Assembly (NCBI GenBank): GCA_963965975.1
Contig: OZ014413.1
Coordinates: 1,800,501-1,864,500 of the forward strand
DNA length: 64,000 nucleotides
Origin: Xestospongia bergquistia
Taxonomy: Eukaryota > Porifera > Demospongiae > Haplosclerida > Petrosiidae
Reading direction: 5' to 3'
Made by a program: the position numbers and the translations under genes. This document shows positions 7,386 through 62,763 of the stretch, one piece after another. How positions within the stretch are numbered: the stretch's first letter is position 1; each line of letters opens with the position of its first letter. Under the pieces are notes generated by a model, which worked only from the letters and a program-made list of their open reading frames with translations, made no database searches and was not told the origin of the DNA.

Positions 7386-8473
7386 AATAACATATCAATT
7401 TAAGATAAACAAGTACACACACATACTACCTTGTTACATGATTTGATTTTTAAACAATCTGCACAACAATAATTAATCATCTCAGCCAGTGAATTAGAAC
7501 TGAACAAATAAGATCAATAACTAGTTATTTATGTATTAACAGAAACTCTCCTATATTGTAATAACATACTATTATATAAACATAATATATGGTATATGCT
7601 AATATACAGATCACTAACAGCTAAACAGTAGCATCATTGTTCAATACTATTTCTTGTAATAGTTAGTGCAAGCAACACTTGAGACATGAAATAATGACAA
7701 AAAACTAATACAATGTATGATTCCTAATAAATGAAAATATTAATAAAAATAAACTTCTATCAGCTCTCATTAATTAAATTACTCTTGGTCTAGTGTACTA
7801 TAAATTCAGTGGCAAGGTATTGAATTAACAACAAGTCTTTCAATTGTAATTAACTAGTCCAAACTTTTATGATATTTCATTTGTAGTAATGTACTTGATC
7901 AATCACAGCAATAATAATACCACTAAGAGTATTGTCTGACTTAAAATAATCCTTGTCAATACAAAACTGACTAAGGAGCAGATTAACACTGGCTTTTATT
8001 TGCTGTGAGAAGATTTACCATACATGCATTACTATTTGCTGCTAATTTTTGACTGATATCTAAGTTAATAATCTGCATAGTGGCAACAGCATCTGGAACT
8101 AATACAATATATCATTCCAGGTACTGATAATGTTTTATTGGTTAATATAAATGTATATAGTTTTACATAGATATATAGTTGTGGAATATTTTTAGTATGG
8201 ACCAAACTAGGAATGAAAGAACAATTGGAGTTGTTAATGATTCATTCATTGTAAAAGTAAACCAGGATCAGAAGAAATTTCTAAATAGATATGATCTTGT
8301 AAATGAGTGCTCGTGTATATAATGTTTGTCAAGATAATAGTTTTAGCCAGTTAGCCCTCCAATAGTAGGAGCATTAAATGTACAATGTTTCAGGGTTATT
8401 TTTTAAAATTAATTAACTGAGGAAGTGGGTGTAACTTTACTAGAACAGTTACTGTATCTTCACTCTTTTCGAC
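7386..8473. other. AT-rich intergenic DNA, no gene seen
   Basis: No ORF, RNA gene or repeat I can support. It ends at the leader exon of gene A, and the last 70 bases before the ATG would hold the 5' UTR. Confidence 0.6.
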
Positions 8474-8699
8474 ATGATTGATATTTCTCAATGGAGAATC
8501 AGTATTGGATTATGGCATTGTCGTCATATACCTTGTAATGCTACAGGGGGAGCTGTCAATAGCGCTCCTTTGTGGGTGGAGTCATTATTTTGTTCTGAAA
8601 ATAGGGGTGTTACAAACCTGGTTTTCTCCCTGGTTGTGTTTCTTTTGTTACTTCTTATATTATCTGGTGATGTTGAACTCAATCCTGGACCTTTGACAG
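8474..8699 (+). other. 2A-type ribosome-skipping leader exon of gene A
   Basis: The exon encodes 75 residues plus one base. A conserved N-terminus (MIDISQWRIS, then GLW and AVNSA) leads to a strongly hydrophobic run (about residues 49-63, VFSLVVFLLLLLIL) and then SGDVELNPGP at residues 64-73. That matches the 2A consensus D-V/I-E-x-N-P-G-P, where the ribosome releases after Gly72 and restarts at Pro73. The donor follows at once (TTGACAG/GTAAAC), so the leader is a separate exon ending in phase 1. The hydrophobic run next to the 2A motif could act as a signal sequence, a dual role reported for 2A-like sequences in echinoderm NLR-like proteins. Confidence 0.88.
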
Positions 8700-9313
8700 G
8701 TAAACAAATGTTAAGATATTAATTCAGCCTGCAATTACCTATTCAACAAGCTATATATGTTTAAACTGTAGTCAACTACACAGACTTATATATATAATAT
8801 ATATATAGAACTTGCAAATGAAACATTTGTAACGTAAGCTTAATTAATTAGTATAGTGTCTAAGAAGTGCTTATTTTTCTGGCAGAAGTCTTACTTTGCT
8901 GCATATAGTTCTAATGTATTATGTTTAGGATTTAGTGGGTGGGGTTCAGCTAAGTATGGACTTTAGTGTGTGTGTTCAACAAAGTATGGACTTACAGCTG
9001 GATCTATAGTCACTGCCTATTTGCTATATTGGAAAGTTTCTTTAACCTACCTTTATACTAATTATTATTTAAACTCACTTGCCTAAAATGTACTAGAGAT
9101 GTATAACTGCAGACATAGTAATTCAGAGTTTATCTAAAATGAGTCATCCATATAATGTAGAATGGATTAAGCAAACTTTCTATCTTATGTGTGAGGAGAA
9201 AATAATATATCTGGTATATAACTAAAGATATATACAATATATATATAGCTGAAATTGTTCTAGAAGTTAGTTACATTTGCTTATGCTAATTATGTTCACA
9301 TAACTCACAACTA

Positions 9314-9390
<77 letters not shown>

Positions 9391-11752
9391 ATGTTTTCAA
9401 TCTTAGAGTTAACATGCAGTCATATTGTGTGAATGCACTACCAAAATTCATATTATTAATTAATGCACATATTATGCTTGATTCCCTCTTTTTCAGATAT
9501 TTCTAATATGTTAAAGGAGGCACCCAATCATGACGATCTTCTGCCTCTATTAGCAGATATCAGCAGTAAATGGTACTCTATTGGTTTGGCTTTTAAGGTT
9601 CATACCAATGATTTGGATAGTTTATCCAAAGGTGTCCAATATGATGATAAAGCCAAACTTTCTAAAGTAATCCGAATCTGGATTGATACTCAATCATCTC
9701 CTGTCATTTGGGAAACAGTTATCTCTGCCCTTGGAGGTCCTATTCTTAATAACAAGAGTAAAGTTGATGAGATACTTCAATATCTAGGCAAGTTGTTTCT
9801 TAATTCTTATTATAAACTATAGAATTCTCTACAATTGTACTTGTATGCTAAATTTATACAAATAGCAATGTAATCAGAAATGTTTTCATCTTTATAAATA
9901 TTATGAAGATGATGAACAAACATTTGGTTTGTGTTTTGTATGTGTTCATAGTAACATGATCAACCATAAAACCTGAAGCAATACAATGTTCAGTGGATTT
10001 ACTGTAATTATTATTATAGCTCTTTATCTAAAGCAAGTTATTCCATATTCTTTTGTTTTTGTACAGACCTTTCAAATTATTTCAGTCAATTTGGTTTGGA
10101 ATATATGGATTTAAAGACACAATGTGATGACAATGTCTTTATTGAAGTTGTACGGCATATTGATGATTGCATTGAAGTAGGTCGTGGCCTTAATCTATCA
10201 AGTGAAATTCTTGAGAGTATGTCAAATAAACCAAATGATATCGAAAGTAAGAATGCTGTGTTATGGACCTGGAAAAAAAAGAAAGAAAATGATGCTACCT
10301 ATATTGAATTAGTCAAGTCCTTCTTAGCAATGAAAAATGAGCCAGCTGCCAAATCCATTTTGAAATATGTTTCAATGAAAACATCAGAAGGAGATGATTC
10401 GACACTTCATATTTCTCCACAAAAGACATATGAAAACTGGAAAGAATTAACAGAGAGTGAGCAGCAGGTGGTAAGAAACAGACTCATGGATGAATATGTT
10501 GATGTAAAGAAAGCTTTTACATTTTTTGTTGGTCAGGTTATGCATTCATTTAGTGAACGTAAGGTTAAACCAGCATATGTTCAAGCACTTGCAAATTGCT
10601 TTTTTGGTAATCAAAAAGTGTTTTCTTTTTCTAAAGACGATGATATTTATATAGTGTTCTTTGAATTAACTAAACACTGCTCATGGTTCAACTATGGATT
10701 GTTTAAAGCTATCATAGAAAGCCCTGGAAATGAAGCTGAAAAGGGTTTTCTCAAAACTTATGAAGACCGACTTGTCACTTACTTAGAGCATTCAATTTTT
10801 GAGATACCATGTAGTCCTCCTGGTAATCAACCTCAGCGTACAAAACTTGTTTTCAAAGTATCTGAAGAACTCTGCTTAACTGGACGAGAAGTAAATGCTA
10901 TCCAACGAGGGCTTGCAAGATTAATTGGTTTTGAGTATGATACAGTAATCAATTTTGAAGACTACAATGATGGCTGTGTTGAGTTGGTATTTAGTCTTCC
11001 CACAGTGATTTTGGAAAGCAGTTTCACTGAATCTTCACTGTTTACATATATTGATTGGGAAAAATCAAAACAAAGTTGCAAAGTCAATATTGACCTAATC
11101 TCTCTTTTGTGAGTATTATGATTTTATAGTTTTAAAGCTGCATTTATATCCACTATAGATCTTTTTCTGATATACCTGAAGTATCAATTGTTAGCAAGAT
11201 TTTGCAGGAAAAGGAAAAAGCTTTAACACAAGTTTCTCTGTCTTTAGAAAATGAAATGAAAAAGAAAAGTTAGTTTGGTTTATTTATAAAATAATGGATA
11301 ATATTATGTCTAATTGTATTGACTTTAAAATCAATAGACATGATTACATTGTACATTGTATTTCTGCAGAAACAGTATTTGATGAAAGTGAAAAGGATTC
11401 ATATGCTAGTACTAATGAAGGTTAAATAAATCTCATGTATTGTGCTAAGATTACTATAGCTTTATATATAGATCCTATTTCTCCTGATTCATCAATGGCT
11501 ACTGAAGAAAAATCAAGTAAACATAAATTGCATGGCAGTGATATTGATATAGAGAGTCAGATCGAAAGAAAGCATAAATTAGTTGATCCTATTCAACATG
11601 AACTTAAAAAGCAAGCATATGATGATAGCAGTTCCATTATAAAGCAACAAGAAATGATTAGTTCACTAAATCTTCAATTGACAGAGAAAAATAAGATGAT
11701 TGAACAATTAGAAGAACAATTGAATATGATAGTTAAGGAAGTTACTTTTTAA
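8474..11752 (+). CDS. Gene A: 2A-leader, Death domain, Death-like domain, sponge module, coiled coil
   Basis: Predicted innate-immune/apoptotic adaptor. Exons inferred from splice consensus: 8474-8699 (2A leader), 9497-9787 (Death domain, about 95 residues, starting DISNMLKEAP), 10067-11108 (Death-like domain from DLSNYF, then the sponge module with CSWFNYGLFKAIIE and YLEHSIFEI), 11159-11268, 11370-11420 and 11472-11752 (coiled coil). They sum to 2001 bases, an open frame of 666 codons plus stop. The intron after the Death exon uses a GC donor (TATCTAG/GCAAGT), where gene B has GT. The last exon has no phase-compatible donor: where the gene B counterpart splices after CAATTGAAAG, gene A reads through to TAA at 11750. 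Either the protein ends here, or the following coiled-coil exons are joined by a donor I cannot see. The 2A motif predicts two translation products. Confidence 0.75.
9317..9387. repeat. (TA)n microsatellite in gene A intron 1
   Basis: About 70 bases of uninterrupted TA dinucleotides lie 110 bp upstream of the Death-domain exon acceptor. Length is likely to vary and assembly here is unreliable. Confidence 0.95.
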
Positions 11753-13926: not shown

Positions 13927-14140
13927 ATGATTGATATTGGAGGATCAGATTCGATTATGACATTGTTGTCATATACTACATAATACTACAAAGAGAGCTG
14001 TCAATTTTACTGGATGTGTTGAGTCATTGTTATGTTTTGAAAATGGGGGTATTACTAATCTGGTTTTCTCCATGGCTGTTGTTCTTTGGTACTTCTTATA
14101 TTATCAGATGATGTCAAACTCAATCTTGGGTCTTTAACAG
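13927..14140 (+). pseudogene. Decayed 2A leader exon of gene B
   Basis: Aligns by eye along its length with the gene A leader (8474-8699): ATGATTGATATT at the start, AGAGCTGTCAAT in the middle, CTGGTTTTCTCC over the hydrophobic segment and the 2A region at the end. It is broken in three ways. The reading frame from the ATG hits a stop after 18 codons. The 2A motif reads D-V-K-L-N-L-G-S instead of D-V-E-L-N-P-G-P, so the invariant Pro-Gly-Pro is lost. The donor AACAG/GT has become AACAG/GA. It can neither skip nor splice. Confidence 0.88.
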
Positions 14141-14426
14141 GATAAGCATTAAACTGTTGACATTGAATTGAATTGATTTTTAAGTTGCCATATTGTAACC
14201 ATCATGCCACATTCACACAGTATATTGTGTATTCATACTATAGCACGAGTATATTAATATAGTGTACTTATGATTTTGATAGTGATAGAGATCTAGCAGG
14301 ATGTCTGTACTTAAGTTAGTTGCTGTTCGTTTTTGTAATATTAACATCACAGTATAATTGGGGTATTGACTTCTTGCTGACCCCTGGATAATTTTTGTGA
14401 TGTAATGCTGATTTTATTCTTTCTAG

Positions 14427-17378
14427 ATATATTAAAAGAAATGCCAAGCCACTATGATCTGTTACATCTATTAGCAGATATGAAAAATAGTTGGTACGAC
14501 TTTGGTTTGGCCCTTAGGGTTTCTTCCGATTGTTTGGATGGTTTATTACGTAGTCCAGACACCCCTAGCACCAAACTATCTAATGTAATCAGAAATTGGA
14601 TGGTTTCTCAATCATCTCCTGTCACTTGGAAAACATTGATCTCTGCCATTGAAGGTCATATTGTTAATAACAAAAGGAAAGCTAATGAGATACGAGACTA
14701 CCTTGGTAAATTAATAATTATTGTCAAGTTAATAATTATAATACCTGGTAATATTTGTGACACTTTATCAGTATAATAGTTGCTACTTTATGACCAAGTA
14801 CCATAATATATAATTATAAAGATTCTGTGAACTCACTTTAAGAAATTAAGTTTTACAATATCATATTGATATTCTCACATATACATTAGTCATATATTTA
14901 CATATTAGACTTCTGCATAAAATTATTAAATATCTAATCCTTAAATTAAAGAACTAAGGAATTAACTCAGTTTTACTGGTTTGTATTTTATGCTGCTAAT
15001 ATTAAATGATATCATGACAATGTTACAAATTATAAACTAGTGAATTTATAGTAAACATTATTCCTACACTACAATGATTGTTTTTCTTGGTTTTAATAAT
15101 CTGTTTTGTTTTTATAGATCTTACTAATTTATTAAGTCAATATGGCCTACAATATGAGGAATTGGAGAAAGAGTGTGATGATGGTCTTATCATTGCAGTT
15201 TCACAAAATATAGATGACTACATAAAAGTAGGACGTGGTCTTGCTTTATCTAGAGAAACACTGGAAAGTATTTCTCGGGACATTGATAACGACATACACA
15301 GAAAAAATGCTGTTTTGTGGGCTTGGAAAATTAAGAATGGAAATGATGCAACCTATTTTGAACTTGTAAAAGCTTTCAGGAAAATGACAGATCGATTTCT
15401 TATAGTATCTGTTTTGAATTATGTCTCAAAGAAAACTACATCAAAGCAAACTTTAACACCAGTTCACCTAGTACCAGAGATGGCAAAAGACATCATGCCT
15501 ACTCTTGAAGAAAAAAGAAGTAATTAAATAACATGTTATATTTATGTGTGAAATTATTATAACACTCTTTAGTTACAGAAAGTCAAAAAAAGATTGCTAG
15601 ACTACAAGAAATAATAAGTTCACTGAATCTTAAATTGATAGAGAAAGATGACATGATTGAGGAATTAGAAACACAATTGAAAGGTACTTAATATCATTAA
15701 AAGATAATTATTCCATGTTTTATATTATTGAACTGTTAGTATATAGTATATTGCAATGTCAGGTATTAATAACTAAGATACTATATATAGTTTACTATAA
15801 TTCTCTCTATTCTATTTACTACAAAGAATCACATATATCAAGAACAAAAGTGGAACCTCGTGCAGCGATGCCCCGTCATCAGGTAGAAAAAGGTAACAGC
15901 TCAATTATCATTATTATGACTAATGAGAGTAAGGACAAATAATGCAAAAATTACAAATTGTAACATGGCATGACCCTTGCAAAATAGAGGATCAGGACTT
16001 CTATGTAAAACAAGCTGAAAACTTTCTGTAGCAAGAGGAAGTGATGTCACTTTAATTTTAACTATTCCAAGTGCTATGGCTGACAAACCATTAAAATATA
16101 CTTATAAAGCAGAGGAGGAGTATAAATGTTTGCTTACCATTTATCAATTTTTACTATATATCCTAGTGTGCCATAAGCATCTAACAGCTTCACCCAAACC
16201 TGGTACAGCCCACCCTAAGTTGTCACATCTCATGTACACAGTGGTTCTGACCCTCAGTTTTCACAAGGATCAGGCCTTACAAAATGCATCTATTATTTAA
16301 GGATAGTAGCTGATTGTAAAATAACACTTTCAATCTACTATACTATGATGCTTCAAATATTGCCATACAGACTTTTTAAAGCCTCTATATATTACCATTA
16401 TTGAGTTGTTTCAGTCACAATTAGTAACATTTCTGATATCACTTTAAAAGCAAGAATTACAACATTATTGTTAGTTTTCTTATCATGTTATTGCTTGAAA
16501 TTTTCACAGTGTCTTTAGCATTTCAAGAGTGCTTAGGAACAGCTAGAGTGGGATATATAAACATTGGCTTACCACTTTATCAATATTTCTAATTTATAGC
16601 TCAGATAAAAATAAAAAAAAATGAAAAGTACTTAATGCTGACTGAACTTTTACTATTGTATATAGTAGCTAAAAATTACATTGATTATTAGTTTTGTCAT
16701 GCCATTACTGAGAGAACTTGATTAAAAAATTATAACAAAAAGACAACAGATTTTGACATTACTACAATGGCAGTTTTGTCCTAAGACCAGACAAACATGA
16801 CAACAGTTTATTATCAATGTTCTGTTATCTTAGATGCCAGATTATACGAATATATAATAGTTTCTAGAATGGGTTCTAAATTCCCATCCAAGTAAGGTCT
16901 GTCAAGATTGTTGCTTGTAAATAATTTATATGTTGACACAGCCACGTTTATTACCTGTCCTTTTCTCACTAGTCTTGCCATCAATATGTGTGTATGACAA
17001 TAACAATGACATTCATCTTATTGTTTAACATATAAAATACATTTTGTTACATCAATACAAACATGTCCTTATATTTATTTTTATAATATAACCGAAGAAG
17101 TATCACATATGCCAGATCTGCTCTTGGATGTACAACCTCCCATTATGGAAATAGCTACACATGCTAGAACTGCAGAGTGGCATCATTTGGGCACGCAACT
17201 AGAACTGAATGATGTGGATTTAGCTGAATGTCATAACTGTACCAAGATGTATCAGTTATGGATTATGGAGAAAGCTGAAAATGCAACTCGCAGGCAATTA
17301 ATATCTGCTTTAAGAGCAATTAGACAAAATAATGTAGCAGATATTTATGAAGATTTTCTAAAAAGAGTTTCTATGTAA
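14427..17378 (+). CDS. Gene B: Death domain, Death-like domain, coiled coil, terminal Death domain
   Basis: Tandem relative of gene A. Exons: 14427-14705 (Death domain, DILKEMPSHYDLL), 15118-15519 (Death-like domain, DLTNLLSQYG, KNAVLWAWK), 15573-15683 (coiled coil), 15827-15892 and the terminal exon 17098-17378 (Death domain, stop TAA). Every internal exon enters and leaves in phase 1, and the terminal exon completes the frame, so the body is intact. The sponge module that follows the Death-like domain in gene A is missing. The 5' leader next door is destroyed. Because all junctions are phase 1, the intact gene A leader could in principle splice onto these exons and would give an open frame of 455 codons including stop. 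Independent start sites are not obvious; the Death exon lacks a well-placed ATG except MLKEM-like internal ones. Confidence 0.65.
15915..16190. repeat. Intronic duplicate, copy 2 (partner at 13120-13430)
   Basis: Second member of the direct repeat described at 13120. It lies downstream of the gene B coiled-coil exons just as copy 1 lies downstream of those of gene A. It contains an ORF starting MADKPLKYTYK that is not conserved in copy 1, so it is not called as a gene. Confidence 0.75.
17098..17378 (+). CDS. Terminal Death-domain exon 1 of gene B
   Basis: An exon of 281 bases entering in phase 1 after ACCGAAG and ending at TAA. It encodes a six-helix Death-fold pattern: EIATHARTAEWHHLGTQL, LNDVDLAECH, MYQLWIMEKAEN, TRRQLISALRAIRQN. 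The W-x-x-L-G-x-x-L and T-R-R-x-L-I-x-A-L signatures are typical Death-domain helices. Its acceptor has a poor polypyrimidine tract. Confidence 0.75.
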
Positions 17379-20655: not shown

Positions 20656-20875
20656 ATGATTGACCTCTGCCAGTGGAGAGCCACTGTTGGGTTGTGGTGT
20701 TCTTGTCAGGTACCACTTACTAAGGGAACTGTCAATTCCGCTGGATGGACAGAGTCACTATGGTCTCATTTAGAAGATTGTGAAGTCGGCGGTAACCTGA
20801 CATTTTCTCTGGTTGTGTTTCTTTTTCTTCTTATAATGTCGGGCGATATTGAACTCAACCCTGGGCCTAAAACAG
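20656..20875 (+). other. 2A-type ribosome-skipping leader exon of gene C
   Basis: Encodes 73 residues plus one base. It starts MIDLCQWRATVGLW, conserved with gene A, then a hydrophobic run LTFSLVVFLFLLIM (about residues 48-61) and SGDIELNPGP (residues 62-71), a perfect 2A consensus with release expected after Gly70. The donor follows immediately (AAAACAG/GTATGC), phase 1, and fits the phase-1 CARD exon at 23397. That intron is about 2.5 kb, long for this window. A TTTTTCCCGCCCC stretch about 65 bp upstream of the ATG may be part of the promoter. Confidence 0.9.
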
Positions 20876-23800: not shown

Positions 23801-26800
23801 TGAGCCAACATGTCACCAACAATTTGTTCAAATGAGACAGACCTATAGTTCTTTTCTTGACAATGTTAAACCTTATATTTTAGCTGGCATTTCTTCACTA
23901 GAGGAACTGAAACAGTATCTTCAAAGACATTTCCAAGAGTTACAACCTCAAATGGTCATAGCTGAATCATTTGATGATGTTATGTATCTTATTGAAGATA
24001 AATGTACTATTATCAATGTATACTGTATAGAGAGTATTGTCAATCAATATAATATCACAGATGCTAAACTAGTAGTTAAGAAGTTCAAGACAGAAGTTGA
24101 TATATTTTGTGACGCAGTAAAACTTAGCATATGTTTTCAAGAAAGTTTTAAGAATGTTTCTTCAGCTCATCATCTCATCTGTGAAACTATTGAGTTTGTT
24201 TTGGGGTCACAGGCTAATAATTACACTCTCACTGACATCAAAAAGCTGCTGTCAACATCATTTGAAAGCGAAGTAAATTATGTTCAAATTAGATGTGTCA
24301 TTGACAATGGCAACTGCATAAATTTAACCTGCTATGCTCCACAAAATCTGTTGGACATATTACAAAGAACAGCAGAGGAGAAACTTGACTTAATCAAAGA
24401 AATGGGAGTAATTCAACTGAAAATCGGTTATCATACCATTTTTGATAAACTGAAGAGAGAGGAGGTACATGATGACTGAATAGTATGCTGATTAAGATAT
24501 TTTGTTGTCATTAATCATAGGAAGTTAGAACTATTATAGAAGAAAACACAATGGAGTTAAGAAGTCAGCTAGAAATGCAACAAACAATCAGTAGAAAGAA
24601 GACTCTGGAAATTGAGTCTGTTTCCAGAGAAAAAGATGGTAGCTATACTTGTATACATATTCTACTACTTTGAGTAATATCACTATGTCATGTATGGTCA
24701 TTATAATAGCTGTGAATTATTTGAAAAATTACAACTCCATCTAATCAAAACTAAATATTTCTTTGTAGAACTAAGGATAATGAAAGAAAGAGAAATTGAA
24801 ACTTTGTCATCAGAACTAACTGGTATGTGATAATTATTATGTTTTCATAATTTTGCTCTGCAACAACTGTTAATAGTTGTAAGTATTGAAATAGTTTGAA
24901 ACGTAATTGCTTCTTTTTAATTGTTAGTAATCCAGGAGAAGTTACAAATTCATACTTCGGTCAATCAAAAGGAGAAAGAGGAGCTACAGGAAGTAATCAC
25001 ATCTTTGACTTTACGTTCACAAGATAGTGATAGAAAGTATGAAGAATTAAAAACATTAATGAAAGGTATAATTAATACTTTCGGTGTCAATTTATGATCT
25101 CAATGCTCAGATCCAGCTTATTTAAAAAAAGCAGTCTTAGCTAGCCAAAGTTTTTCAATGCCAACAAATCAAAGTAGGTATTGTTGTTAATGGTTTATCA
25201 GTACTCTAGGGTTTGATCAACAGGCATATTGTTCAACATGTATGTAGACACCATATGCTACTATCATTGCTATATATAATCATAATGCTAAATTTCACTT
25301 TAGTTGTCTAGTAAACCCTTTTGTAGCAAGGTCACCTCCTCTCAAGTATAAATCTAAGTAGACATGAAATTGCTTGCTTTAAGCCTTTGGCATGGTACAT
25401 ATATCATACATATAGAGCTATGTTAGTTGTAGCTTCCACAAATTTATTATATGTGTTAAAAGGCCTACTTTAATTATGAATGTGCCATGAAGTTGTCATG
25501 CAAGCAACATTGAGTCTGGCATTTGGTAATAATTTTGTAATTGAAAAGTATGATATACATGCATATCAGTTAGTTATTGTGTATGCATAGTTATTATAAT
25601 TCTATCTTCTACCAATTAGCTAAGAGAAAAGGTTATAAAACTGTTAAATGGACCAACCTCTTTTTCTTTGGCCCTCCTATGAGTGGCAAATCATCCCTTC
25701 TGAGATTGCTTCTTGATGAAGTTCCATGTAAAGAGTATAGTAGTACTCCAATTGTTGCAGCACCAATAATAATTATGACAAAAACATCAGAATCAAGTGA
25801 ACAACCAAACCAGTCATGGTACAAAATGGATTGTAACTCTCTAAAAGCTCTCATTGAAAAAGAAACTGATTCACAAATACACTTGATTTATGCTATTGAC
25901 ACTGGAGGTCAGGCTGTATTTCTAGATATCGCTCATGCTTTGCTACAAGATAATTCTGTTAGCATAGTCACTCACAACCTGACTGAAAGTCTTGAAGACA
26001 TTCCTAAGTTTTATTTTACTGTTAAAGGAAAATCAGTAAGTGTGCCTGTAAAACAACGAATCAATAATTTCAATATCTTGAATCTTCATTTCGTTCATTA
26101 CATTCTGTAAAAAAAGAGGTTCATGAAATTCATAGTAAAGCTACATTAAATATATTGGGAACCTTTTTTAAAGAGAGAATATATTCTGAAGAGTCTATAA
26201 AAAAGAAGAATGAAGTGCTTTGGGGAAAGGTTGAACATTTTGAAATGGTGTCTCGCTATCAAGTATCAACAGAAGAAGTAATATTTCCAATTGACACAAC
26301 CATAAGAGGGGATGATGACATGATAATGGCTAATCATTTACGCCATAGAATATGTCAAAGTTATAGTCAGAAAGAAGTTCCTGTTAAATGGCTCTTGTTT
26401 CAGATGGAGCTAGAAAATCTTCAAGAGACCTCTCCAACAAAATTGATGAGCTTAGACAAATGCTTAAACATTGGTATTACTCTTGATATGAAGGTTAATG
26501 AAGTTAAAGATGCCCTGTTACACTATCACGAGTTAACCATTTTTCAATACTTTCCTCATATCTTTCCCAATGTAGTATTTCTTCATCCACAACCACTTTT
26601 AGAGAAACTGTCTGAATTGATTGCTGTATCAATTCCTGAGGCTGTTGATCTTTTAGCTAAAGAATATGGTATCTACATTCCATATGAAGATCATAATCTA
26701 ATGAAGAGATATGGTGTTTTTAAAGATCACCTGTTAACTGAACACTTATCAGAAGGCTTTGACAAAGAAAATTTTACTGCAGAAAAATATCTGGAGTTAC

Positions 26801-42460: not shown

Positions 42461-42654
42461 CATATTTTGGACACGCCTAACGAGCCAAAAATTTTAATTA
42501 GAGTTTTTCACGAGTTTGTGCCATGTGTTTGCCAAAATGAAGCATGAAAGAAATGTCTTGAAAACATATAAGAATTTCATGTTACAACCTTATACTAGGT
42601 CTACAGACCCCCGTGGGTCTTCGTCGCAACGACTCGTCGTTGATTGTTCTCAGT

Positions 42655-43115
42655 TCTTGGTTGGCAGTTCTCTGATATTTTATTGGTTGGCAGTTCTCTG
42701 ATATTTTTATTGGTTGGCAGTTCTCTCAGATTTTTATTGGTTGGCAGTTCTCTGACAGATTTATTGGTTGGCAGTTCTCTGACAGATTTATTGGTTGGCA
42801 GTTCTCTGACATTTTTATTGGTTGGCAGTTCTCTGACAGATTTATTGGTTGGCAGTTCTCTGATATTTTTATTGGTTGGTAGTTCTCTGACAGATTTATT
42901 GGTTGGCAGTTCTCTCATCATATTTTTATTGGTTGGCAGTTCTCTCAGATTTTTATTGGTTGGCAGTTCTCTCAGATTTTTATTGGTTGGCAGTTCTCTC
43001 ATATTTTTATTGGTTGGCAGTTCTCTGACATTTTTATTGGTTGGCAGTTCTCTCATCATAATTATTTTTATTGGTTGGCAGTTCTCTAATGGATTGATTG
43101 TTCTCAGTTCTCTGA
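42655..43115. repeat. Minisatellite, 16 copies of a 27-33 bp unit
   Basis: Unit TTGGTTGGCAGTTCTCTGAC plus TTTTTA, repeated 16 times by count, with variant tails (GACAGAT, GATATTT, CAGATTT, CATCATATTT). Nearly all unit lengths are multiples of three, so long ORFs exist on both strands: LLVGSSL repeats on plus and RELPTNK repeats on minus. These are most likely a by-product of the repeat, though a repetitive protein cannot be excluded from sequence alone. Confidence 0.9.
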
Positions 43116-43270
43116 TGTTCTCTGGATGAAAAAGATGAGTCACTCTCCTGCCTTGTCTCTTCTGTCTTCCTTCAAGCCTTCTTTCCTCTTCTTTTAATTT
43201 TTTTTTTAATTTTTTTTGGGCCATTCAGCCCATACATTATACACACACTCATACAAACTCTATTAATCAT

Positions 43271-58587: not shown

Positions 58588-60363
58588 TTAGTTATCACAA
58601 CTGGAACAATCGCTATCATCACTATTTTTATCTCTCTCTTCTCTTGAGTTAATACACAGATACTTGTTATAATGGTTCTCAGCTAAAATATGGAAATTTA
58701 TTGGACAGTCACGAACACGCATTGTATAACGATAAGCCAAATAGATAAACAATACCAGGAAGACTACACTTATTATGGTTTTGATAAAATAGTAATAGAA
58801 AGTACAACTGGGCTGTGCTGTGTCTGAGATAGCAGTGAAGAGATAATGAAGGTTGAGACATATCAATTCTACAAATCCATAAAAGGCAAACCACAGTCCA
58901 ACCATAAATCCTTTCATTGGACCAGGTGTTTGAGCTACAATAAATTCTACTGCAAAAGGTACAATAACCATTTCACCAAGGCCAGCAAGCACAACAGGAG
59001 GAAATGACCAACGATAGTCTAGAGACAGACTTACTGTTGTATTAGTAAATAAGCACACATCAGTATGTGTAACAGTATGAGCTACTGGATCTAATATGAC
59101 ATAATAAAAGACACTTAATGTACAAAGACTCAGACCAAAACCTATCCTTTTCATGAGACTGGGAATGTAGTTATAGAAACAAGGATAGATGAAGATATTA
59201 TATATGGCTATAAAAACTACCATATAAATTGAATAATGAAAGCCTTTACTCTGTAGTAAATGATGTACTAACTTGTTAAAATTGCCTTGAATTATTGGAT
59301 GTTGAAGTCGTTCTATGAATACTATTGGACTTATTAAAATACCATATCCAACAGAAAGGAAAGAAATTGGTAGTAGTCTTAATGTAGTCTTAACATCTTC
59401 TACCTGCTCCTCTGAAAATGGCCCACCATATTTTCCTTTACCTAGGTTCAGTCGTGAAGGGTAGTCCTCCTCCCAGTAAGTCAAAGAACTACGATTCCTT
59501 GGGTGTTTGTTCTTTCTTGCATAGTTGAGTACTTTAAAAATTAGTCTGATGGGGTTGGTAATCTGAGGGGTAGTATCCAGCCAGTGCTCACAGAAAGCAA
59601 TAGTGACAATAATAATTCCAATCAGGAGTATATGAATGAGAAGTATTGTCATTGTGAAATACTGACTTCTAAGTATTGAAGACATTTCATTTAAGATGAT
59701 GTTAATGATTTCAGCTAGAGCACTCAACCAAAAATGCCAGTGGATCAATGCACTTAACATTTCTCCAGAGGCTCCTTGAACTTGATCTGTTAAAAAGGGA
59801 ATAACATTAGCATCAAAACAAGCAAATCCAGCTATATTAAAGAAAACACTTATACCAAGAATAATCATGACTATAATTTGAACCGAGAACTGTTGTCCAT
59901 CAGCATAGATATGTATGAGATATCCAATGGACATTAATATAGAAGCAATAAATATACTAAATATACTGTATATTATAGCTTTATAACGACCAATTTTAGC
60001 ATCAGCTAACCAACCCATCAGTGGGTACAGGATAAACAAAGCTCTGTAGAGGTTTACATGAATACTTTCAGGAACTTTGTGATGGTAAGCTAGCGCCAGT
60101 TGAAGAAGATGTACTGAAATATAAAAAGGGATAAAAGCATGTGTTAAGAATCCCCATAGTAGAACAAGAAGTGCTCCTTTAGAGAAGACACACTGAATAC
60201 GATATTTATGGCCATAGCAACTGTTAGCTTTACTGATAACACTATTGTCTCTTGATGAATTACAAACTGAATGGACAAAAGGTCCTGAAGTTTGTGAAGA
60301 TTCAGATATATCTGTACCCCATGATTTGGTAGATATAAGAGAAGTTTCTATCCTGGCAGCCAT
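58588..60363 (-). CDS. POT/SLC15-like transporter, copy 1, intronless
   Basis: A 591-codon single exon. Predicted major-facilitator membrane protein with about 12 hydrophobic segments, resembling proton-coupled oligopeptide transporters. Signs are YPLMGWLADAKIGRYKAI (the P-x-x-G-x-x-A-D-x-x-x-G-R-Y-K-x-I motif, about residues 113-130), CFDANVIPFLTDQVQG with SALIHWHFW (about 180-210), a long central cytosolic loop (SSLTYWEEDYPSRLNLGKGK, about 290-310) and late GPMKGFMVGLWFAFYGF (about 480-500). The C-terminus is Ser/Asp-rich (DDSDCSSCDN). The E-x-x-E-R motif of classical POTs near the start is not visible, so proton coupling and substrate are uncertain. First of three tandem copies; lack of introns in an intron-rich window suggests an ancestral retrocopy. 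Confidence 0.8.
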   Translation of the reverse strand: MAARIETSLISTKSWGTDISESSQTSGPFVHSVCNSSRDNSVISKANSCYGHKYRIQCVFSKGALLVLLWGFLTHAFIPFYISVHLLQLALAYHHKVPESIHVNLYRALFILYPLMGWLADAKIGRYKAIIYSIFSIFIASILMSIGYLIHIYADGQQFSVQIIVMIILGISVFFNIAGFACFDANVIPFLTDQVQGASGEMLSALIHWHFWLSALAEIINIILNEMSSILRSQYFTMTILLIHILLIGIIIVTIAFCEHWLDTTPQITNPIRLIFKVLNYARKNKHPRNRSSLTYWEEDYPSRLNLGKGKYGGPFSEEQVEDVKTTLRLLPISFLSVGYGILISPIVFIERLQHPIIQGNFNKLVHHLLQSKGFHYSIYMVVFIAIYNIFIYPCFYNYIPSLMKRIGFGLSLCTLSVFYYVILDPVAHTVTHTDVCLFTNTTVSLSLDYRWSFPPVVLAGLGEMVIVPFAVEFIVAQTPGPMKGFMVGLWFAFYGFVELICLNLHYLFTAISDTAQPSCTFYYYFIKTIISVVFLVLFIYLAYRYTMRVRDCPINFHILAENHYNKYLCINSREERDKNSDDSDCSSCDN

Positions 60364-60445
60364 TTAGATGGATTAAGTCTACTAGTATTATGATAACAGT
60401 CACTGTGAAGGTTAATAACTGGTGAGATATTCTGATTTGTTTTTA
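60364..60445 (-). promoter_or_regulatory. Conserved upstream block of transporter copy 1
   Basis: The block TACTAGTATTATGATAACA, CACTGTGAAGGTTAATAACT, GGTGAGATATTCTRATTTG is shared almost exactly with 62764-62845 upstream of copy 2. It covers the 5' UTR and probably the core promoter, and the conservation stops soon after. Confidence 0.6.
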
Positions 60446-60984
60446 TAACTTGGTGCAAATGTTTTTCCTAATAGAGTATGGTTTCTTTTTAAGTGTATAT
60501 CCAAACAGTGAAAGTGAATCAATGACATTTTCTTTTGCTCCTAAAGTTATTTTTATAGTGTTATTGCAACTGTCATCAATGCTTCATACAATCATAATCA
60601 TACTAGTACCATTGACTCAATCCCAAACCTGTCCCAATTCATGATACTTTGCCCAATCCTATAATGAATCCAACTCTAGCCCAACACTCAAACTAAACTA
60701 TATTTAAAATATTGAGCAGAGGATATACATTTTAAGCTCACAAATTTAATAGTCTCCTAGTTACTCTCAACCAAACTACAACAATGTCTTGTGGTCAACA
60801 TTGGAGTATATGAAGTAAATAATACCTTTATGAAATAACTGTTTGTATATTACAAATACAATTATTCATGTTTACCAATAACATGCATAGTTGATGTGAC
60901 AAACTCTTACTGATTTTGAAACTGAAAGTAAAAAGGTTTAATAAAACTAACAAAAAAGCACTTCAAACAACACTGTACATGTAG

Positions 60985-62763
60985 CTATGGGGAGTTCTCA
61001 CAACTGGAACAAGCACTACTATCACTATCATTATCTCTTGAATTAATACACAAATACTTGTTATAATGGTTCTCAGCAAAAATATGAAAATTTATTGGAC
61101 AATCACGAACACGCATCGTGTATCGATGAGACAAATAGATAAACAAACCCAGGAAGGCTGCACTTATTATAGTTTTGATAAGATAGTAATAGAAAGTACA
61201 ACTAGGCTGTGCTGTGTCTGAGATAGCAGTGAAGGGATAATAAAGGTTGAGACATATCAATTGTACAAATCCATAAAAGGCAAACCACAGTCCAACCATA
61301 AATCCTTTCATTGGACCAGGTGTTTGAGCTACAATAAATTCTACTGCAAAAGGTACAATAACCATTTCACCAAGGCCAGCAAGCACAACAGGAGGAAATG
61401 ACCAACGATAGTCTAGAGACAGACTTACTGTTGTATTAGTAAATAAGCACACATCAGTATGTGTAATAATAGTATGAGCTACTGGATCTAATATGACATA
61501 GTATAAGATACTTAATGTACAAAGACTCAGACCAAAACCTATCCTCTTCATGAGACTGGGAATGTAGTTATAGAAACAAGGATAGATGAAGATGGCAAAA
61601 ACTATGATAAAAGCAATCATATAAATGGCATTATGGAAACTATTGTCTTCAACTAATTCTTGGGCAACTCTTCTCCAATTACTATTCAATGTTGGATGTT
61701 GAAGATGTTTTATGTATTGGATGGAGTCTGTTAAAATTCCAAACCCAGTTGAAAAGAAAACAATTGGTAACAATCTTATTGTAGTTTTGACATCTTCTAC
61801 CTCTTCCTCCAAGAAAGGTCCACCATATTTTTCCTTACCTAAATTCAATCTGGAAGGATAATCCTCCTCCCAATAGGTCAAGGCACTACGGTTTGTTGGG
61901 TACTTATTCTTTCTAGCATAGTTGAGTACTTTGAAAATCAATCTGACTGGATTGGTAATTACAGGGGTAATGTCCAGCCAATCTTTATACCAGACAGAAG
62001 TAATGAAAACAATACTAACTAATAAGACATGAATCACTAGTATTGCCAATGTCAGATATTGACTTTGTAATACTGAAGAAGTATATAACATGATTAGGTT
62101 AATAGCTTCAGAGAGAGAGTTCAACCAAAAATTCCAGTGGATTAATGCACTTAACTTTTCTCCTGAGGCTCCTTGAACTTGATCAGTCAAAAAAGGAATA
62201 ATATTAGCATCAAAACAAGCAAACGCAGCTATATTAAAGATAATACTTACGCCTAGGATAGCAGTAAATATAATTTTAAGTGAGTCGTACTGTCCCCCAT
62301 CGTAGATATGTATGAGATATCCAATGGACATTAATATAGAAGCAATAAATATACTAAATATACTGTATATTATAGCTTTATAACGACCAATCTTAGCATC
62401 AGCTAACCAACCCATCAGTGGGTACAAGATAAAGAGAGCTCTGTAAAGGTTTCCATTTATATTGTGGAAAGGAACTTCATGATGATATCCCAACACAAGA
62501 TGGAGTAGATGGAATGATGTGGAGATAGGGAGAAAAGCATGTACCAGAAATACCCACAGAAGAAGTAAATATGCTCCTTTAGAGAAGACACACTGAATAC
62601 GATAGTTATGACTACAACATCTGTGAACTTTACTGGTAGCACTACCATCTCGTGATATTACACTAACTGAATGGACAATAGATCCTGAAGTTTGTGAAGC
62701 TTCAGATATATTAGTGCTCCATGATCTGGTAGATATAAGAGAATTTTCTATTCTGGCAGCCAT
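60985..62763 (-). CDS. POT/SLC15-like transporter, copy 2, intronless
   Basis: 592 codons, tandem paralogue of copy 1 with the same landmarks: YPLMGWLADAKIGRYKAI, CFDANIIPFLTDQVQGASG, ALTYWEEDYPSRLNLGKEK and GPMKGFMVGLWFAFYGFVQL. The C-terminal third is nearly identical to copy 1. The first extracellular loop (YHHEVPFHNINGN), the segment around residues 150-170 and the middle (FHNAIYMIAFIIVFAIFIYP) differ more. The mosaic pattern suggests gene conversion of the 3' half. It ends DNDSDSSACSSCENSP. Confidence 0.8.
   Translation of the reverse strand: MAARIENSLISTRSWSTNISEASQTSGSIVHSVSVISRDGSATSKVHRCCSHNYRIQCVFSKGAYLLLLWVFLVHAFLPISTSFHLLHLVLGYHHEVPFHNINGNLYRALFILYPLMGWLADAKIGRYKAIIYSIFSIFIASILMSIGYLIHIYDGGQYDSLKIIFTAILGVSIIFNIAAFACFDANIIPFLTDQVQGASGEKLSALIHWNFWLNSLSEAINLIMLYTSSVLQSQYLTLAILVIHVLLVSIVFITSVWYKDWLDITPVITNPVRLIFKVLNYARKNKYPTNRSALTYWEEDYPSRLNLGKEKYGGPFLEEEVEDVKTTIRLLPIVFFSTGFGILTDSIQYIKHLQHPTLNSNWRRVAQELVEDNSFHNAIYMIAFIIVFAIFIYPCFYNYIPSLMKRIGFGLSLCTLSILYYVILDPVAHTIITHTDVCLFTNTTVSLSLDYRWSFPPVVLAGLGEMVIVPFAVEFIVAQTPGPMKGFMVGLWFAFYGFVQLICLNLYYPFTAISDTAQPSCTFYYYLIKTIISAAFLGLFIYLSHRYTMRVRDCPINFHIFAENHYNKYLCINSRDNDSDSSACSSCENSP

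Follow-up and report, generated by a model that had tools for sequence, protein, structure and literature searches.

A recurrent 2A-type leader exon precedes Death-like, NACHT and other genes in the sponge Xestospongia bergquistia

Can a ribosome-skipping motif on an exon of its own influence where a sponge Death-domain protein goes? The question is raised by a gene in a 64,000-nucleotide stretch of the X. bergquistia genome, referred to here as the window (C3:1800501-1864500), and was pursued across all 146.5 Mb (21 contigs) of the genome. With moderate confidence, we favor the reading that a shared StopGo (2A) leader, carried on a phase 1 exon, yields a free, membrane-prone peptide of 72 residues together with a cytosolic protein, while a minority of the product would stay fused and be bound for the membrane or for secretion.

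The leader exon and its gene

The leader exon (8474-8699, + strand) extends from an ATG to SGDVELNPGP-LT plus 1 nt and ends in a phase 1 donor. Its peptide starts MIDISQWRISIGLW and runs as MIDISQWR...LLLLLILSGDVELNPGP-LT; the full translation of the exon is MIDISQWRISIGLWHCRHIPCNATGGAVNSAPLWVESLFCSENRGVTNLVFSLVVFLLLLLILSGDVELNPGPLT. The frame holding the ATG at 8474 opens at 8444 and closes with a stop that ends at 8722, and retention of the first intron would end translation at that stop, giving a leader-only product. The NPGP codons end at 8692 and are followed by TTGACAG, with the GT donor at 8700. Beyond NPG, the exon codes for P-L-T plus one base, which is phase 1.

A pattern scan of the window placed the 2A octapeptide DVELNPGP at 8669-8691 (+ strand). 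Searched without mismatches, the pattern occurs twice in the window (8669-8691 and 20845-20867) and in none of 100 shuffles. The preceding LLILSG resembles the "LLLLSG-like" class of viral StopGo sequences, as described in the available part of a survey of such elements (PMC12846837). According to the same source, one class of viral StopGo sites is L-rich and has (A/S/C)G ahead of the D, and the related motif 6 is among four viral upstream motifs active in vitro, at 92.7% to almost 100% across the four. In both systems, D[VI]ExNPGP is preceded by an L-rich stretch that ends in SG. However, the viral elements lie in viral ORFs (PMC12846837, as far as available), whereas here the sequence forms the N-terminal leader of chromosomal genes. 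When viral_contigs was scanned once with the leader alignment, 22 pattern matches came up, none of them a relative; a viral origin was rejected on this basis. By its octapeptide and, through likeness, its upstream context, the exon would carry a 2A/StopGo element.

The inferred first intron (8700-9496, + strand) is of the GT-AG type and is supported by the sequence and by the phase test described below. An AG precedes 9497, and donor and acceptor of the 8699/9497 junction are both phase 1 and join in frame; the spliced product would read ...NPGP-LTDISNMLKEAP... The next exon (9497-9787, + strand; limits set by eye) is of phase 1-1 and is predicted to adopt the Death fold. A GC-type donor, AG-GCAAGT at 9788, seems to end it. 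The exon had no match in Pfam. An alignment of 30 of its relatives, compared with the PDB, gave 10 distinct sequences at an E value of 0.1 or lower, all of them FADD, the best being weak (E 0.0014). AlphaFold2 predicted six helices with a mean pLDDT of 92.5. Foldseek with this model returned nothing at an E value of 0.001 or better (best, 0.14); its top eight matches were all Death domains (probability 0.96-1.00, TM 0.64-0.75). The first-pass annotation had proposed a 2A motif closing a 72-residue leader (counted to the G of NPG) that is joined to a Death-domain exon. Our reading of the exon agrees on the motif and the length, the in-phase junction favors the joining, and the predicted fold and weak FADD matches are in keeping with the Death assignment.

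Further downstream, a putative exon (10067-11108, + strand; limits by eye) would carry a second Death-like domain (matched by Pfam Death at E 0.00097, which falls short of the curated cut-off) and an unnamed module. It is followed by a putative exon of coiled-coil character (11159-11268, + strand), likewise delimited by eye.

The window holds two more leaders. A decayed one (13927-14140, + strand; C3:1814449-1814598 in the leader search) has lost three things together: its frame is broken, its octapeptide has become DVKLNLGS, and its GT donor is gone. The Death-like exon 3' of it (14426-14704, + strand) is still open. The other leader (20656-20875, + strand; MIDLCQWR...SGDIELNPGP-KT plus 1 nt) is intact. 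No known module was found in the 4 kb 3' of it, and a ROC-like GTPase stretch (25622-25852, + strand; E 3.5e-15) lies 4.7 kb 3' of it, with a Pfam Roc value of 0.0033, below the cut-off. Elsewhere in the window, the minus strand carries a frame of tandem RELPTNK-type repeats (42601-43224) and two tandem frames of 591 and 592 amino acids (58588-62763) that are much alike and have, by eye, the look of membrane transporters.

A leader family across the genome

A protein search of the genome with the leader gave 150 scored matches among 184 candidates; two of the 150 overlap and represent one leader. No internal stop was present in 142, while 135 cover the query from residue 4 or earlier to residue 73 or later, and 130 do both. 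In the first-pass annotation, the combination of leader and downstream exons had looked undescribed. It is no isolated case: the leader belongs to a set of about 150 matches, and 99 of these stand before four named gene families.

The pattern D[VI]ExNPGP occurs at 161 sites in the genome, and the backwards pattern, used as a control, at none. Octapeptides and leaders were compared over the first 100 of these sites, and hence for 89 of the 150 leaders (contigs C1-C8, and C10 up to 5548784). The octapeptide was kept in 78 of these 89 matches (77 distinct sites). Among the remaining 11, four have stops, five are short or do not reach the octapeptide, and two (C4:754043 and C4:785469) are full-length, open leaders without the canonical octapeptide pattern, which we count against the StopGo reading. 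Another possibility is that the leader works as a plain signal anchor and that its NPGP is inactive or there by chance, as the hydrophobic run described below could by itself target a protein. We hold this to be very improbable, given the octapeptide retained in 78 of 89 matches compared, an upstream context of fitting class and the parallel in sea urchin NLRs.

From 58 octapeptide sites, 12 were set aside: three leaders missed by the start rule (L032, L045 and L046) and nine further sites (L051 and L053-L060). A divergent leader, MIDIGVWRARIGLF...AGDVEVNPGP, was seen at L052:114-299 (C1:2174800-2175200). As it falls outside the 150 matches, the leader family is wider than these matches. Extra in-frame ATGs occur upstream of some leaders (L003-L006, C4), so that a longer N-terminus is possible there.

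The leader as a protein

A hydrophobic run occupies residues 49-63 of the window's leader (LVFSLVVFLLLLLIL; 8618-8662, + strand) and ends 9 residues before the release point. In all 43 distinct leaders, the last residue of the hydrophobic core lies 8 or 9 positions ahead of the G of NPG; the core starts at residue 39-51, and the length to NPGP is 62-74 amino acids. The best 17-residue sums, calculated on an insertion scale, ranged from -6.2 to about 0 among the 43 leaders, and the copies are therefore not all equally hydrophobic. The run had been suggested to double as a signal sequence. The run itself is borne out, and a cleaved signal is one of three options, the others being a signal anchor and a tail anchor. 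At residues 49-63, 9 before release, the run is placed more like a signal anchor or a tail anchor than like a classical N-terminal signal peptide. Its distance of 48 residues from the N terminus is unusual for a signal peptide, and we count this against our main reading. AlphaFold gave a weak model of the leader (pLDDT 62.8), with helices at 4-18, 33-40 and 46-64, the last being best supported; at this pLDDT, the model is too weak to interpret.

Invariant in the 43 distinct leaders are M1, W7, L60 and most octapeptide positions, the last of these through selection of the set, and nearly invariant are I2, D3, Q6, R8, I11, G12, L13 and W14, residue 3 having been fixed as D or E by the start rule. 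The hexapeptide LLILSG is present in 36 of the 43. The leader is under purifying selection. Pooled over all pairs of 44 leaders, dN/dS was 0.22 for residues 1-17, 0.84 for residues 18-48 and 0.21 for residues 49-64; both ends are therefore kept while the middle drifts. The value for the octapeptide segment was not used, the copies having been chosen by their octapeptide. Compared with Pfam, 43 leaders had no family match (best E, 0.018), and a leader profile gave a single PDB match at E 9.3. A known domain was rejected as the identity of the leader on these grounds.

The constraint on residues 1-17 seems stronger than a mere signal would need. It raises an alternative in which StopGo is real and targeting is not its point: two products would be made, the leader would be a small membrane peptide with its own job, made of the conserved MIDxxQWRxxIGLW and an anchor, and the fused protein would be noise. 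The four viral upstream motifs, which skip at ~93% to almost 100% in vitro according to the available part of the viral study (PMC12846837), fit such a peptide. However, the natural sea urchin NLR leader tested was recoded at ~80%, its unskipped form being exocytic, as stated in the accessible part of that report (PMC4981915), and the lack of any Pfam or PDB family match speaks against a peptide with its own job as well. We regard this alternative as possible but rather unlikely.

Genes downstream of the leaders

A partner was counted when it shared the strand of the leader and lay no more than 12 kb away, without another leader in between. Under this rule, 47 of the 150 leader matches precede NACHT (NLR-type) matches, 33 precede ankyrin modules, 14 ROC-like GTPases and 5 guanylate-binding-protein (GBP) GTPases; the other 51, which include the leader of the window's own gene, have none of these four partners. 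The family lists contained the best 103 of 156 NACHT, 125 of 2132 ankyrin and 150 of 395 ROC candidates. Among the 95 NACHT matches listed, 47 have a same-strand leader 0.7-3.8 kb upstream (within 6 kb); a leader on the opposite strand, whether before or after, comes within 6 kb of 1 of the 95. These 47 are all among the 66 listed matches outside contig C2; none of the 29 listed on C2 has an upstream leader. The latter form a cluster at C2:8.8-9.15 Mb in which no upstream leader was found and which provides a natural comparison group.

For the ankyrin module, 41 of the 123 listed rows, some genes being represented by two rows, have a leader within 6 kb (opposite strand, 1). A leader within 12 kb was present for 7 of 27 listed GBP rows and 14 of 118 listed ROC rows (opposite strand, 0 in both cases), the 118 ROC rows being a hand merge of listed rows among 201 matches. 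Among the matches listed, a leader in range is lacking for 104 of the 118 ROC rows and for 82 of the 123 ankyrin rows. In Pfam, pieces behind leaders matched GBP (E 1.1e-33 and 1.7e-34), NACHT (5.3e-23) and ankyrin repeats; COR-A was found behind a leader at 5.7e-7, below its cut-off. Of ten pieces taken from behind other leaders, two (L043 and L048) had no Pfam match, and the same was true of L030, the first exon of a NACHT gene.

The phase of the first junction was examined for 48 leaders, with the duplicates L001, L031, L042, L048 and L049 left out; 10 had no known module in the DNA examined. In all 38 that could be tested, the best-scoring acceptor of the next module is in phase 1 and matches the leader donor. 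These modules are a Death-like domain, a second Death-like type and a helical domain of NACHT genes, which has no Pfam match and is taken here for CARD-like. The 38 copies are related rather than independent; the three module types agree. That splicing does not join the leader and the Death exon at all, and the gene models are wrong, is barely credible in view of this agreement across three module types, two of them Death-like, and of the NACHT strand bias of 47 to 1 among the matches listed. Past the first junction, linkage of leader and gene is presumed from position.

A tree of the leaders groups them broadly by downstream family, which fits few acquisitions followed by duplication. ROC leaders fall into two groups, several nodes have low support, and the ankyrin label of the C14 leaders was assigned by contig.

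PHD-type 2A sites and the origin of the leader

The genome contains a second type of 2A site, in which a hydrophobic run, the octapeptide and a PHD finger share one frame (L055 and L058; contigs C1 and C4). Pfam PHD_5 matched L055 at 2.1e-8 and L058 at 3.7e-5, the latter below cut-off. L053, L056 and L057 resemble this type by eye. Fourteen copies at 95% identity or more, one of them in two rows, lie within C4:8.60-8.91 Mb, where Death-like exons occur too. The stretch from PGP onward had 70 matches; in three of the four places compared, these lie 2410-2411 nt before a reverse transcriptase. No canonical octapeptide was listed for the PHD places on C1 and C6. This spacing links the PHD-type 2A to retrotransposons. 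Cellular 2A sequences in non-LTR retrotransposons have reportedly been described, in work attributed to Odon et al. in 2013, and this genome is similar in that one of its 2A types precedes a PHD finger whose family also occurs next to reverse transcriptase.

A 2A before a PHD finger, and PHD matches at 2410-2411 nt from reverse transcriptase in three of four places, would suit a further alternative, namely, that the 5' end of a retrotransposon became the leader exon and that the 2A is a relic without a present role. But the leader copies examined have a fixed phase 1 donor followed by Death-like or NACHT exons, and leaders cluster with gene families and are under purifying selection. Reverse transcriptase was found within 10 kb downstream of a same-strand leader for 0 of the 43 rows compared, among 150 listed of 1023 candidates. 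Ten frames behind leaders likewise gave no reverse transcriptase in Pfam, and, unlike in the non-LTR elements, neither a PHD finger nor reverse transcriptase was noticed, by eye and by coordinates, behind the MID leaders read. We consider a relic improbable and, because of the fixed donor phase, the clustering with gene families and the purifying selection, rejected it as the main reading. The MID leader may nevertheless be of mobile origin.

A proposed route from leader to location

Under our preferred reading of a StopGo leader with two fates, the leader would serve this genome as an N-terminal exon shared by many intracellular genes, often of immune type. Ribosomes translating it would be stalled by the L-rich run together with D[VI]ELNPG. 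Most of them would then let the 72-residue leader go at NPG and continue from the Pro, so that the product made next would be a cytosolic Death-domain (or NLR, GBP, ROC-like or ankyrin) protein starting with Pro. The ribosome exit tunnel holds roughly 30-40 residues. For this reason, the hydrophobic run would still be inside the tunnel when skipping occurs, and the choice would therefore be made before the membrane machinery can recognize the run. Where skipping fails, the run would emerge and the fused protein would be sent to the membrane or into the secretory route. The released leader, which ends 9 residues past its hydrophobic run, could insert like a tail-anchored protein.

We expect the leaders to be active in skipping and to leave some fused product. 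In proteins that are translocated into the endoplasmic reticulum, the sequence immediately preceding a 2A can inhibit it (PMC2978324), and the efficiency here is therefore not predictable from viral sites.

Comparison with sea urchin NLR leaders

A parallel with echinoderm NLR leaders, drawn in the first-pass annotation, holds up, as the SpNLR2A leaders of Strongylocentrotus purpuratus work on the same principle: an N-terminal D[VI]ExNPGP and a hydrophobic tract stand before NACHT-type immune genes (PMC4981915, in the part accessible). About 35% (85/241) of sea urchin NLRs have a 2A-like sequence at or near the N terminus, and another count in the available portion gives 14 of 87 NCBI entries with a 26-residue one (Roulston et al. 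2016, PMC4981915). By position, an N-terminal 2A before NACHT genes would recur in the sponge, but not in the window's own gene. The sea urchin leader of 26 residues is reported for NLRs (same source), whereas the leaders here have 62-74 residues, begin with a conserved MIDxxQWRxxIGLW, occupy their own phase 1 exon, and precede NACHT, ankyrin, ROC-like, GBP and Death/coiled-coil genes. Dual targeting was demonstrated with reporters for SpNLR2A (PMC4981915, as far as accessible), whereas for the sponge leaders it is a prediction from the sequence.

In the literature searched, neither a sponge 2A leader nor a printed leader sequence was found; an earlier mention is possible, for example, in Rao et al. 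2025 (Cell Reports) or Odon et al. 2013. In the available text of a 2026 paper on sponge NLRs, the term "signal peptide" is absent (PMC12909245). The principle is known from sea urchin NLRs, while neither a leader of this length and conservation nor its occurrence before several families turned up in the literature searched.

Implications

StopGo is described as rare in cellular genes in the available part of the survey cited above (PMC12846837). If active, the roughly 150 leader matches of this genome, of which 99 precede NACHT, ankyrin, ROC-like or GBP domains, would be the widest cellular use of StopGo that we found described. Through the leader, one mRNA may supply a protein to two cellular locations. 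The NACHT, ankyrin, ROC-like and GBP families often, although not always, serve immunity. The occurrence of the leader in a sponge, and of a shorter form in sea urchin NLRs, poses the question of whether the location of innate immune receptors is set at the ribosome. As a tentative and rather doubtful extension, a single StopGo leader family would act as a common translational valve for a large share of the intracellular immune repertoire (NLR, GBP, ROC-like, ankyrin and Death genes) in an early animal, freeing a conserved membrane microprotein with its own role, and a change in skipping would shift the whole set between the cytosol and the membrane or the outside.
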